DNA of 54,539 nucleotides, from NCBI GenBank assembly GCA_030648205.1, contig JAUSIH010000012.1, positions 1 to 54,539 on the forward strand, written 5' to 3'. A program made the position numbers and the translations under genes. Below the pieces are notes generated by a model that was not told where the DNA came from, did not search any database, and was given only the letters and a program-made list of their open reading frames with translations. Positions 42,192 through 48,650 of this stretch are shown in pieces; within the stretch, counting starts at the first letter, position 1, and each line of letters opens with the position of its first letter. This DNA is from Dehalococcoidia bacterium (lineage in GTDB: Bacteria; Chloroflexota; Dehalococcoidia; JAUSIH01).

Positions 42192-42220
42192 TTGACATTT
42201 GTCCCCCGTGTAGCTATCGT
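42192..42220 (+). promoter_or_regulatory. promoter of the FTR-glutaredoxin operon
   Basis: TTGACA (42192-42197), 17 bases, TATCGT (42215-42220). The transcript would start near 42227, 20 bases before the ATG and just before AGGAGG (42236-42241). Confidence 0.7.
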
Positions 42221-42246
42221 AAAAATACTCATTGCAGGAGGAGCCT

Positions 42247-42684
42247 ATGCCCAAGAACGAAATCACTCTGGAGCAGGCCATCGCCGGCGCCAAGAAGATG
42301 TCGGAAAACTACGTGGCCCGGGGGCCGTACAAGTTCTACCCGGACGCGACCGTGGTTGACTTGGTGCAGCGTGGTCTGGCGGAGAACCAGGTCAAGCAGG
42401 GCTATCGCTACTGTCCTTGAATGCCCCTTACCGGCGATCCCGTTGAGGACCGCAAGCGCATATGCCCCTGCGACAGGCACCACGAAGACATCGCACGCGA
42501 CGGCTTTTGTATATGAATGTTCTTCGTGAGCGAAGAGTTTCTTCGCCAGATGGAGCAGGGGGGCCAGCCCGCGAGCAAGCTCGATGAGGCTGTGCGGGAG
42601 GGCCAGCCGCTGTTCACGCCCGGCGCGAAGCGGCCAGACAAGTCCGCGGGCAGGGCGAATCCGCAGGGAGGTGCGTCGGCGTGA
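42247..42684 (+). CDS. ferredoxin:thioredoxin reductase catalytic subunit with two selenocysteines (TGA 42418 and 42514)
   Basis: 145 residues when two in-frame TGA codons are read as Sec (58 and 90); a plain reading stops after 57. FTR catalytic chains have CPC-x(n)-CPC-x(n)-CxC. Here the three motifs read YCPU, ICPCD and FCIU. In the plant-type enzyme the first Cys of motif 1, both of motif 2 and the first of motif 3 bind the 4Fe-4S cluster; the last Cys of motifs 1 and 3 form the redox disulfide. So C56, C73, C75 and C88 are kept and exactly the redox pair is U58/U90. Spacing, GYRYCP and MFFVSEEF match the family. SECIS-like hairpins follow both TGAs. It should reduce thiol proteins with ferredoxin electrons; the next gene is the likely target. 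Confidence 0.9.
42434..42453 (+). promoter_or_regulatory. SECIS-like hairpin for Sec58 of FTR
   Basis: GCGATCC / GGACCGC with one A-C mismatch and loop CGTTGA. The loop starts 21 nt after the TGA at 42418-42420 and has G then U at positions 2-3. Confidence 0.6.
42530..42546 (+). promoter_or_regulatory. SECIS-like hairpin for Sec90 of FTR
   Basis: Perfect 6-bp stem GCGAAG / CTTCGC with loop AGTTT starting 20 nt after the TGA at 42514-42516. G and U are at loop positions 2 and 3. Confidence 0.75.
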
Positions 42685-42932
42685 CCGATACGCAGATTAC
42701 CGTTTTCACATCCGCGGGCTGAGGGCCTTGCCACATGGTGAAAGTGTACCTTTCACAGAGAGGCATCCCGTTCACGGAGAAAAACACGAGTCTTGACCCC
42801 GCGGCGAAAGAGGAGCTGATGAAGCTGGGCTACCAGGCCACGCCCATCACCCTCATTGGTGATCAGAAGCTCCTGGGGTTCAACCCCATGCGCCTTCAGG
42901 CGGCGCTCGCCGCGGCGGGCATCAAGAAATAG
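42681..42932 (+). CDS. glutaredoxin-like selenoprotein (active site U-G-P-C, TGA 42720)
   Basis: 83 residues from the GTG at 42681 with TGA 42720-42722 read as Sec14. GGGAGG (42666-42671) lies 9 bases upstream, and GTGA overlaps the FTR stop, so the two are coupled. The thioredoxin fold is complete only with read-through: QITVFTSAG-U-GPCHMV gives the first strand and the UxxC active site. The cis-Pro motif is in QATPITLIGDQKLLGFNP. Size and motifs fit NrdH/glutaredoxin-like proteins. An ATG at 42735 would yield a truncated protein without the active site. A perfect SECIS-like stem follows. I infer that the FTR reduces it; the final substrates are unknown. Confidence 0.9.
42738..42756 (+). promoter_or_regulatory. 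SECIS-like hairpin of the glutaredoxin gene
   Basis: Perfect 7-bp stem GTGAAAG / CTTTCAC with loop TGTAC. The loop starts 23 nt after the TGA and has G and U at positions 2 and 3. Confidence 0.8.
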
Positions 42933-42959: not shown

Positions 42960-42995
42960 AGAATCCCCCTTCCGTGGAAGGGGGATTCTTCTTTG
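42960..42995 (+). terminator. rho-independent terminator of the FTR-glutaredoxin operon
   Basis: GAATCCCCCTTC pairs with GAAGGGGGATTC around CGTG, followed by TTCTTT. It ends the operon 28 bases after the last stop codon. Confidence 0.9.
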
Positions 42996-43179: not shown

Positions 43180-45543
43180 CTATCGGCTGGCCTCGGTCGT
43201 CATTGACCGCAAATAGTTGACGAGATGCCACCGTTCCTCGTCGGAGAGCTTGTCTTTGAAGGGCAGCATGGGCGTTCCGAACAACCCCTCGGAGATGAAG
43301 TAGAAGAGCTGCGAATCGCTGTGCAGGGGGACGTGCAGTTGGAGGTCAGCGGGGCGCAACGCGAGACCTGGCGCTTCGGGGCCATCGCTGCGTCCGGTCA
43401 CGCCGTGGCACTGGGCGCAGTTAGCCTGGTACAGGCGCTGGCCTATCGCCACCGAGGCGGGAGTCGAGGCCACGGGGTTTCCCCCCGGCGCAAGGAGGGC
43501 CGGTGAGCTTGTTATGGACTGGACGTCTCTGGCGAAGGCGTTCGCCCAGGACGCCGCCGCCATCGCCACCAGCACCAGGCCGGCGAGTATTGTCCAGGCG
43601 GGCCGGAGGCGCAGGCGACGCAAGCTCCAGAACACCAGCCCCAGACACCCCATCATGACCAGGCCAATGATCACCCCCAACCCCGGCACCCACATCCCCG
43701 AGAACGCCACGCCCCCGGCGCGCAGCTCCACCAGAGGCGGCGCGGGAGCGGCGGGAGCGGCGAACGCGGACGCGGGAAGAGTCTCCGCGACGTCCACGGG
43801 GAATACGGTCCTCGCGTCCAGGGCGTCGGCCCGCCGGACGAACATCTCGACGGACCAGCGGCCTCGTGAGACCAGATTGCCCCCGGCAGCACGGTAGACA
43901 CCCGGTCTTACCGACTGGAGGTCCAGCGTGGACGCGCCCACGTCTCCGGCTTCGCTTGTGAAGTTCAGCGTCACCTGGGCCGGCGTCGTCAGGGGAGCGC
44001 CGCGCACATCATTGAGCGCGACTTCAAACGTGTTCACGCCGGGACGCCCCGGTGAGATGGCGAGAGTGATGCGCAGGTCGTCGGCGCTACGCACGAGCTG
44101 CAGCTTTTGCACGGATGCGCGCGCGGCGATCTCTCCGGCGGCGGGAGGCATGGTCACCAGCAAGGCCGCCACCGCGACGATGAGGACGCCCATCACCGCC
44201 TCGCCGCGCACCAGCAGGCGGAACCGCCGCACCAGCGTCGTTGCCGTGGCCGCGAGCCGGGCGTGGGCGGCGGCCATGATACGAGGCCGCGCCCACAGGG
44301 CGTTCGTCGCGGCCAGAGCCAGCATGGGCACGAGCAAGGCGAGCTTGACCAGCAGGACGTTGCCATAGCCGGTGGTCAGGAGGCCGGGGAAGCTGCCAAC
44401 CTGGATGAGGCTGCTGAGTATTCCCGTGCCGATGAGCACGCCCACGCTGGCAAGCGCCAGGACATGGAAGCGGGTAATGACTCCGCCCAGGACCTCGGCG
44501 TGCTCGGACGCGGTTAAAGAGGCTGGCGCGACCGCAAGTAGACGCACCAGAAAGACGAGGCCGCCCACCCACGCGGACGCCGCAAGCATGTGCAGCCAGT
44601 CGGCCAGCACGTACAGCGCGGTCGGCCCGGACAGCGCGGCTGCGTGGCTTGTCAGGCTGGTGGTGAGCAACAGAAGCGCGCCCAGGGAAGTCACGACCAA
44701 GAGCATGACCCGCGGGCGCGTGCCTTCGGACGGCCTGGGCCACGGTCGAGCGACCGCCGCCACGAGTCCGAGGATGAGCGCCACGCGCGTCAGCCAGAAC
44801 GCGCCGAGACGCGTCTCCGTCACGACGCGCAGCGGCGACGTCTCCAGCTTCAGCGCCTGGTCAACAAGGGCCGCGACGGCCGCCAGGGCAAGCGCGGCGA
44901 TGCTGCCCCAAAGGAGCAATCGGAGGAAGGAGAACGTGCGCGATTTCACATCCGCCAGACGGGCGTTACGTCCTCGCTTCCCGCGGAAGGCGGCGGGCGC
45001 GACCAGCAGCACGAATATCCCGCTGCCTGTCGCTACGACAGCTCCCACCAGGTGAAGAAAACGTCCCATCACCTCCAGCGGGCTCACGATGTACGCGGAG
45101 GACGCCGGCCCCGCCGCGCCCAGTTCGGCGCCCTGCGTCGCCCCTCCAATGGTGAAGGGGAACGACCCCGCTGTGACGTGCCCGTCCACGCTGGACAAGA
45201 CGCGCCAGTTCACGAGATATGTCCCGTCCGGCAGAGGCGTTTTCAGCCCCAGCGAGAGGCTCAGGCGGTCGCCGCTGATACGCACGTCGCCCGCGTCAAC
45301 GCGCTGACGCTGAGCGTCCAGCGCCAGCGCCTGTGTGAATTTGGGATCCACGGTCTCGCTGAACGTCAGCGTGATGCGCTCCGGCGCCACGGGTAACACT
45401 GCGTTGGCGGCGGGGTTGGAGTCCACCAGCTCCGCATGCGCCAGCGCGGGCCTCGCGCCGGCCAACGCCAGCGCGACCGTCACCAGGAGCGCCATCCCGC
45501 GCAGCAGCAGGCGCGGCCCCGCGGCAGGCAAAGAGCGCGCCAT
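43180..45543 (-). CDS. CopC-CopD-cytochrome c fusion protein
   Basis: 787 residues. A signal peptide ends in ALAHAEL, so mature His1 is the first CopC copper ligand. The CopC domain (about 36-132) has TFSETVDPKF and the Asp-x-His of SSVDGHVTAGS. CopD follows with about eight helices (150-450). Next comes an extracytoplasmic beta-domain (FixH/YtkA-like, about 470-600), another two helices and a class I cytochrome c with CAQCHG (about residue 705) and a Met ligand in GTPMLPFKDKLSDEE. It is probably a copper import or insertion device linked to electron transfer. The start abuts the stop of the small gene upstream (TAGATG). Confidence 0.9.
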   Translation of the reverse strand: MARSLPAAGPRLLLRGMALLVTVALALAGARPALAHAELVDSNPAANAVLPVAPERITLTFSETVDPKFTQALALDAQRQRVDAGDVRISGDRLSLSLGLKTPLPDGTYLVNWRVLSSVDGHVTAGSFPFTIGGATQGAELGAAGPASSAYIVSPLEVMGRFLHLVGAVVATGSGIFVLLVAPAAFRGKRGRNARLADVKSRTFSFLRLLLWGSIAALALAAVAALVDQALKLETSPLRVVTETRLGAFWLTRVALILGLVAAVARPWPRPSEGTRPRVMLLVVTSLGALLLLTTSLTSHAAALSGPTALYVLADWLHMLAASAWVGGLVFLVRLLAVAPASLTASEHAEVLGGVITRFHVLALASVGVLIGTGILSSLIQVGSFPGLLTTGYGNVLLVKLALLVPMLALAATNALWARPRIMAAAHARLAATATTLVRRFRLLVRGEAVMGVLIVAVAALLVTMPPAAGEIAARASVQKLQLVRSADDLRITLAISPGRPGVNTFEVALNDVRGAPLTTPAQVTLNFTSEAGDVGASTLDLQSVRPGVYRAAGGNLVSRGRWSVEMFVRRADALDARTVFPVDVAETLPASAFAAPAAPAPPLVELRAGGVAFSGMWVPGLGVIIGLVMMGCLGLVFWSLRRLRLRPAWTILAGLVLVAMAAASWANAFARDVQSITSSPALLAPGGNPVASTPASVAIGQRLYQANCAQCHGVTGRSDGPEAPGLALRPADLQLHVPLHSDSQLFYFISEGLFGTPMLPFKDKLSDEERWHLVNYLRSMTTEASR

Positions 45544-48293: not shown

Positions 48294-48650
48294 GGGGACG
48301 CGTGGTTTCGACAGGGGGTGTTTGGACAGAATTGCAGGCCGAGGGCGCCATCAGGCCTCGTTAAAAGGTGGCACAACTGTAACTGGCGAGCGCGAGTTCG
48401 CACTCGCTGCCTAAGTAGGCAGCGACGTCCGCCTTCTCCTCTCCTCGAAGGGGGAGACCGGGCGCCACGAAGTCGAGGTGCCGCCTATCCTGACGTCGCT
48501 AGGGGCAGGCGAAAGTTTCCAGCGGCTGGCCTGGAGCGACCCCGTCGGTCGGGGCGGTCCGGGCGAGAAACAAAGGGCCGGCTAAACCTGTAGCACATTC
48601 TGTCGAGGTATCCTTTGGACGGGGAGTTCGACTCTCCCCCGTCTCCACCA
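48294..48650 (+). ncRNA. ssrA: transfer-messenger RNA (tmRNA)
   Basis: One-piece tmRNA of about 357 nt that rescues stalled ribosomes. The 5' end GGGGACG pairs with CGTCTCC next to the encoded ACCA end; GTGGTTTCGACAGGGG is the conserved D-like region. The T-arm is GGGAGTTCGACTCTCCC. The reading frame around 48380-48415 ends GGC GAG CGC GAG TTC GCA CTC GCT GCC TAA, so the tag ends GEREFALAA. The resume codon is not fixed with certainty (GGC is likely). Several pseudoknots follow. A similar GERE start is known to me in Dehalococcoides tags. Confidence 0.95.

Follow-up and report, generated by a model that had tools for sequence, protein, structure and literature searches.

In plants and cyanobacteria, ferredoxin-thioredoxin reductase (FTR) takes electrons singly from ferredoxin and passes them through a 4Fe-4S cluster to an adjacent disulfide, from which they reach a partner with the thioredoxin fold. 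In these known enzymes, the redox Cys of the third motif adjoins the cluster and interacts with it. The association of the FTR 4Fe-4S cluster with a redox disulfide is described in the literature (PMC9712825). Selenocysteine (Sec) has also been reported in this family. In 2008, the ocean (GOS) metagenome study of Zhang and Gladyshev described two FTR selenoprotein sequences, one of which has two predicted Sec residues “exactly corresponding to the two redox-active Cys residues” (PMC2398784). The FTR selenoprotein is included in reviews (PMC9312934, PMC13188914), and Sec-containing glutaredoxin is an accepted selenoprotein family (PMC13188914).

Here we analyze a DNA stretch of 54,539 nucleotides from a Dehalococcoidia bacterium (the window), in which an earlier note, made from the sequence alone, had recognized an FTR with Sec at both redox positions. 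The novelty that the note implied does not hold, since the double-Sec FTR is already known as a kind of protein from the 2008 report and from the curated NCBIfam family NF041072. In the literature searched, it is recorded solely as a predicted family, and neither a characterized double-Sec FTR nor an enzyme assay was found there, in agreement with the note.

Results

The gene spanning 42247 to 42684 is a single reading frame with an ATG start, in which in-frame TGA codons occupy residues 58 (42418) and 90 (42514) and a third TGA (42682-42684) is the stop (Table 1). Its three motifs read CPU, CPC, and CIU, and translation thus reproduces what the earlier note had read. With TGA taken as Sec, the product scores 72.5 bits against the Pfam profile PF02943 (FeThRed_B; cut-off of 22) and 217.6 bits against NF041072 (“FtrB family double-selenoprotein”; cut-off of 160), which is an equivalog model. 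This supports the earlier assignment to the FTR catalytic subunits.

Alignment with the chains of 4tpu, 7pwe, 7bzk, 1dj7, and 2pvd matches residue 58 to the final Cys of motif 1 and residue 90 to that of motif 3. These are the redox-dithiol positions of the FTR family, at which Sec codons replace Cys here. The four cluster Cys, namely C56 (first of motif 1), C73 and C75 (both of motif 2), and C88 (first of motif 3), are invariant in the alignment, and the redox pair alone is changed, as had been proposed. An AlphaFold model built with 19 input sequences (mean pLDDT of 76, with residues 115 to 145 below 50) gave significant structural matches to FTR-type proteins only, with 7pwe at the top, followed by 4tpu and 1dj7. 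Judged by its sequence, the product is an FTR catalytic subunit in which both redox Cys are replaced by Sec, and its enzyme activity is predicted.

Table 1. Features of the FTR/glutaredoxin locus (window coordinates)
Feature	Position	Strand	Evidence
Sigma-70-like promoter, TTGACA-17-TATCGT	42192..42220	+	Consensus scan, 10/12 matches, 0.1 expected; does not alone indicate function
Shine-Dalgarno-like GGAGGAG, 5' of FTR start	42236..42243	+	Read from sequence
FtrB-type ferredoxin-thioredoxin reductase catalytic subunit, U58 and U90	42247..42684	+	Translation, NF041072, PF02943, AlphaFold model
TGA, Sec at motif 1 redox site (CPU)	42418..42420	+	TGA in 25/25 distinct homologues
SECIS-like hairpin 1, 7-pair stem; the copy here has one A-C mismatch	42434..42453	+	Conserved pairing, 25 sequences
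TGA, Sec at motif 3 redox site (CIU)	42514..42516	+	TGA in 25/25 distinct homologues
SECIS-like hairpin 2, GCGAAGA-GTT-TCTTCGC	42530..42546	+	Conserved pairing, 25 sequences
Glutaredoxin/NrdH-like selenoprotein, UGPC motif	42681..42932	+	Translation, PF00462
TGA, Sec of glutaredoxin	42720..42722	+	TGA in 10/10 subfamily members
SECIS-like hairpin 3, GTGAAAG-TGTAC-CTTTCAC	42738..42756	+	Hairpin in 10/10 members
Intrinsic-terminator-like hairpin, T-rich tail	42966..42984	+	Pattern scan; 0.9 expected by chance in region, weak alone

The conservation of the two TGAs was explored among 393 sampled genomes of the class, 25 of which carry homologues above the NF041072 cut-off, all with two internal TGAs. 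The 27 double-Sec FTR loci correspond to 25 distinct sequences, with the two further loci, which come from assemblies labeled Dehalococcoidia and Chloroflexi, duplicating two of them. When the homologues were listed by their residues at the redox sites, TGA was observed at both sites in every distinct sequence, and no version with Cys at either site was found within this clade of 27 loci. Where the earlier note had allowed for random stops in relatives or for read errors, the TGAs proved to be fixed at the redox sites. Moreover, pN/pS over the 25 distinct sequences is 0.40 before the TGAs, 0.12 between them, and 0.51 after the second, which indicates that the frame is under protein selection beyond both codons.

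The genome, with a size of 2.69 Mb and a completeness of 95%, encodes the Sec insertion machinery that the note had proposed to look for. Profile scores are 452 bits for SelA, 351 bits for SelB, and 366 bits for SelD, the gene of which has an internal TGA of its own, and a tRNA-Sec with a UCA anticodon is present. Both FTR TGAs very likely specify Sec. The tRNA-Sec gene lies directly 3' of a thioredoxin gene on the same strand (G000:C102:18137-18553; L002, L186).

Each of the two TGAs is followed by a hairpin with a 7-pair stem that begins 16 bases from the T of the respective codon. Across the 25 sequences, 98% of cells are paired in hairpin 1 and 96% in hairpin 2, versus at most 49% and 66%, respectively, in slid registers. 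Synonymous codons are frozen in the stems, with an excess codon homozygosity of 0.41 inside versus 0.06 outside (Mann-Whitney p of 2e-6, an optimistic value because related sequences were compared and the stem limits were themselves chosen from these data, though the effect is large). At the place of hairpin 2, the divergent member L077 forms a hairpin of different sequence. At gathering thresholds, the sole Rfam match in the window was tmRNA, with no SECIS, and the hairpins were therefore assessed by conservation. By the criterion for bacterial SECIS elements, the structures found 3' of both TGAs are SECIS-like, and binding of SelB to them is putative. The tmRNA gene itself lies at 48294-48650 of the window (160 bits).

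The FTR stop codon overlaps the GTG start of a glutaredoxin gene (GTGA), a second selenoprotein gene that the earlier note had missed. Its product, with a UGPC motif, scores 44.1 bits against PF00462 (cut-off of 22.9). It is under the cut-off of every NCBIfam model matched, such as TIGR02194 (NrdH; 58.1 versus 85.75) and TIGR02196 (YruB; 61.1 versus 88.55), which is the best of them. Hairpin 3 (GTGAAAG-loop-CTTTCAC) is preserved in L114 through a paired change and is absent from the homologues with Cys (L118, L120, and L121). The gene pair is flanked by sequences that resemble a promoter and a terminator hairpin, both of them weak evidence (Table 1). On the minus strand, the window encodes a copper-resistance fusion protein of the CopC/CopD type that has a cytochrome c domain at its C terminus (43180-45543).

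A search of the class using an alignment of seven members as the query retrieved the UGPC subfamily, with scores of at least 127.7 bits, from 10 genomes; the next homologue scored 91.7. Each of these 10 genomes also encodes a double-Sec FTR at a distance of no more than about 600 bases, with the glutaredoxin downstream on the FTR strand in nine pairs and divergent in one (G643). These genomes are related and do not represent 10 independent events. Nine of the carriers share one branch of the FTR tree (98/86), while the row of the window is unplaced inside the double-Sec clade. Given this shared branch, the pairing of FTR with the UGPC glutaredoxin may be a single ancestral event. Among the 25 genomes with a double-Sec FTR, 15 lack a UGPC-type glutaredoxin gene beside it, which shows that this glutaredoxin is not a universal partner. 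A common FTR neighbor was sought in these genomes and none was found; cytochrome-type genes are near several. A sister subfamily of seleno-glutaredoxins has a UGSC motif and a similar hairpin (L119, L122, L123, L125, and L127), and a double-Sec FTR was not found in those genomes.

The double-Sec FTRs form one clade in the FTR tree (100/99). This tree has only 98 columns, which leave the deep branching order unsettled, and thus the stepwise route to the double-Sec form is not readable from it. FTRs of the class with a single Sec and Cys in motif 1 (CPC..C[HY]U; L044-L050, L138-L177) have their Sec at motif 3, the cluster-side position, in 45 of 45 cases, a number that is no estimate of prevalence, given that these sequences were chosen for carrying one TGA. 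Eight rows scored C-S by pattern read CHU on inspection. The single-Sec proteins fall in two separated subfamilies, and Sec may have been gained repeatedly at the cluster-side residue in FTRs of the class. A protein from another class (genome G015; L023:958-1779, minus strand) has Sec at motif 1 only (CPU..CRC) and is a single FTR-Grx-Grx chain with two glutaredoxin domains. No FTR relatives were found in the viral contigs or plasmids searched, and hence there is no sign of a mobile carrier.

Discussion

The overlapping seleno-glutaredoxin gene suggests what the double-Sec FTR reduces. We propose that the two-gene unit would function as a reductase relay that depends on ferredoxin and contains three selenocysteines. 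Reduced ferredoxin would deliver electrons one at a time to the 4Fe-4S cluster of FTR, with U90, on the cluster side, carrying the one-electron intermediate. U58 would then attack the selenenylsulfide of the UGPC glutaredoxin, which would hand electrons to further targets. The oxidized FTR would contain a U58-U90 diselenide, and both this bond and a changed redox potential are plausible. A relay from ferredoxin through the double-Sec FTR to the Sec-glutaredoxin is the reading that we consider probable. The UGPC glutaredoxin is the most likely partner because of the overlap or adjacency of the genes, the strict co-occurrence of the subfamily, the FTR-Grx-Grx chain, and the position of 7pwe as the top structural match. 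The fuller reading, a dedicated three-selenium relay in which a diselenide-type FTR serves the Sec-glutaredoxin of the overlapping gene, together with repeated gain of Sec at the cluster side in FTRs of the class, is put forward tentatively, with slightly less than even confidence.

The substrate may instead be thioredoxin, with the seleno-glutaredoxin merely co-regulated and acting alone. The genome encodes a thioredoxin (120.8 bits), plant and cyanobacterial FTRs have been solved in complex with thioredoxins, and the majority of double-Sec FTRs have no adjacent UGPC-type glutaredoxin. This alternative is nevertheless unlikely, since the stop/start overlap and the co-occurrence in 10 of 10 genomes suggest a dedicated glutaredoxin partner, and natural fusions of FTR with glutaredoxin exist. 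Moreover, an NADPH thioredoxin reductase (375 bits) is already encoded in the genome, and the thioredoxin need not rely on the double-Sec FTR. With both of these proteins present, thioredoxin is a possible further substrate of FTR alongside the glutaredoxin.

A different view of the active site, which fits either substrate, is that no diselenide is formed, U90 being bound to the cluster through an Fe-Se bond while U58 alone cycles. In known FTR chemistry, the motif 3 Cys adjoins the cluster and interacts with it. The single-Sec FTRs of the class have Sec at the cluster-side site only, which argues that selenium at this site is useful without a second Sec. The double-Sec clade, on the other hand, always retains both residues, and we regard cluster-bound U90 as improbable to about the same degree as thioredoxin being the true substrate.

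The remaining explanations concern the TGAs themselves, and both have a negligible probability. The assemblies are drafts with many contigs, but neither a pseudogene nor errors of sequencing or assembly that hit two Cys codons are compatible with the homologues: 25 distinct sequences, drawn from many families, all have the two TGAs, selection on the protein acts on either side of them, and the hairpins are conserved. A recoded genome in which TGA encodes an amino acid other than Sec would account for the in-frame TGAs in themselves, but it is strongly disfavored by their conservation and the Sec machinery: the FTR gene itself terminates at TGA where the glutaredoxin starts, the in-frame TGAs are on redox Cys positions with a hairpin each, and SelA, SelB, SelD, and tRNA-Sec(UCA) are all in the genome. 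Taken together, the conserved TGAs, the hairpins, and the machinery make the identification of both residues as Sec, already put forward in the earlier note, almost certain.

The locus links the double-Sec FTR to a bacterial group with genomes, to an RNA signal for each Sec insertion, and to a likely partner that can be expressed and tested. It also makes two questions concrete, namely, the role of selenium beside a 4Fe-4S cluster and the reason why single Sec gains in the other FTR lineages of the class hit the cluster-side Cys. Beyond the three selenoprotein papers, no link between FTR, glutaredoxin, and selenium was found in the literature searched, and searches on the Desulfotalea fusion and on FTR combined with NrdH returned nothing. 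Neither the pairing with a seleno-glutaredoxin nor the putative repeated gain of Sec in FTRs was found in this literature.

Comparison with known systems

NF041072 describes the same family as the FTR of the window, with both Sec positions, and the protein itself is no different; a match to this model says nothing about the glutaredoxin partner. The GOS sequence JCVI_READ_1093012271142 (PMC2398784) likewise has Sec at both redox sites, but it is a metagenome read without genome context or host, and it may belong to the same clade. The catalytic chains of the cyanobacterial and chloroplast FTRs (1dj7, 2puk, and 7bzk) have the fold and the three Cys motifs in common with the FTR of the window, to which they are approximately 28 to 30% identical. 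They differ in having a Cys redox pair and a variable subunit.

Two non-photosynthetic reductases of the FTR type are the ferredoxin-dependent disulfide reductase of Methanosarcina acetivorans (4tpu) and the Desulfotalea protein 7pwe. Both have Cys at the two aligned redox sites, in contrast with the Sec of the FTR described here. The latter is a glutaredoxin/FDR fusion, which combines in one chain the FTR and glutaredoxin functions that are divided between two genes in this locus. Finally, the known Sec-containing glutaredoxins share the Grx fold and the U/CxxC site with the UGPC protein, whose subfamily differs from them in being under the NCBIfam cut-offs and in being tied to an FTR gene.
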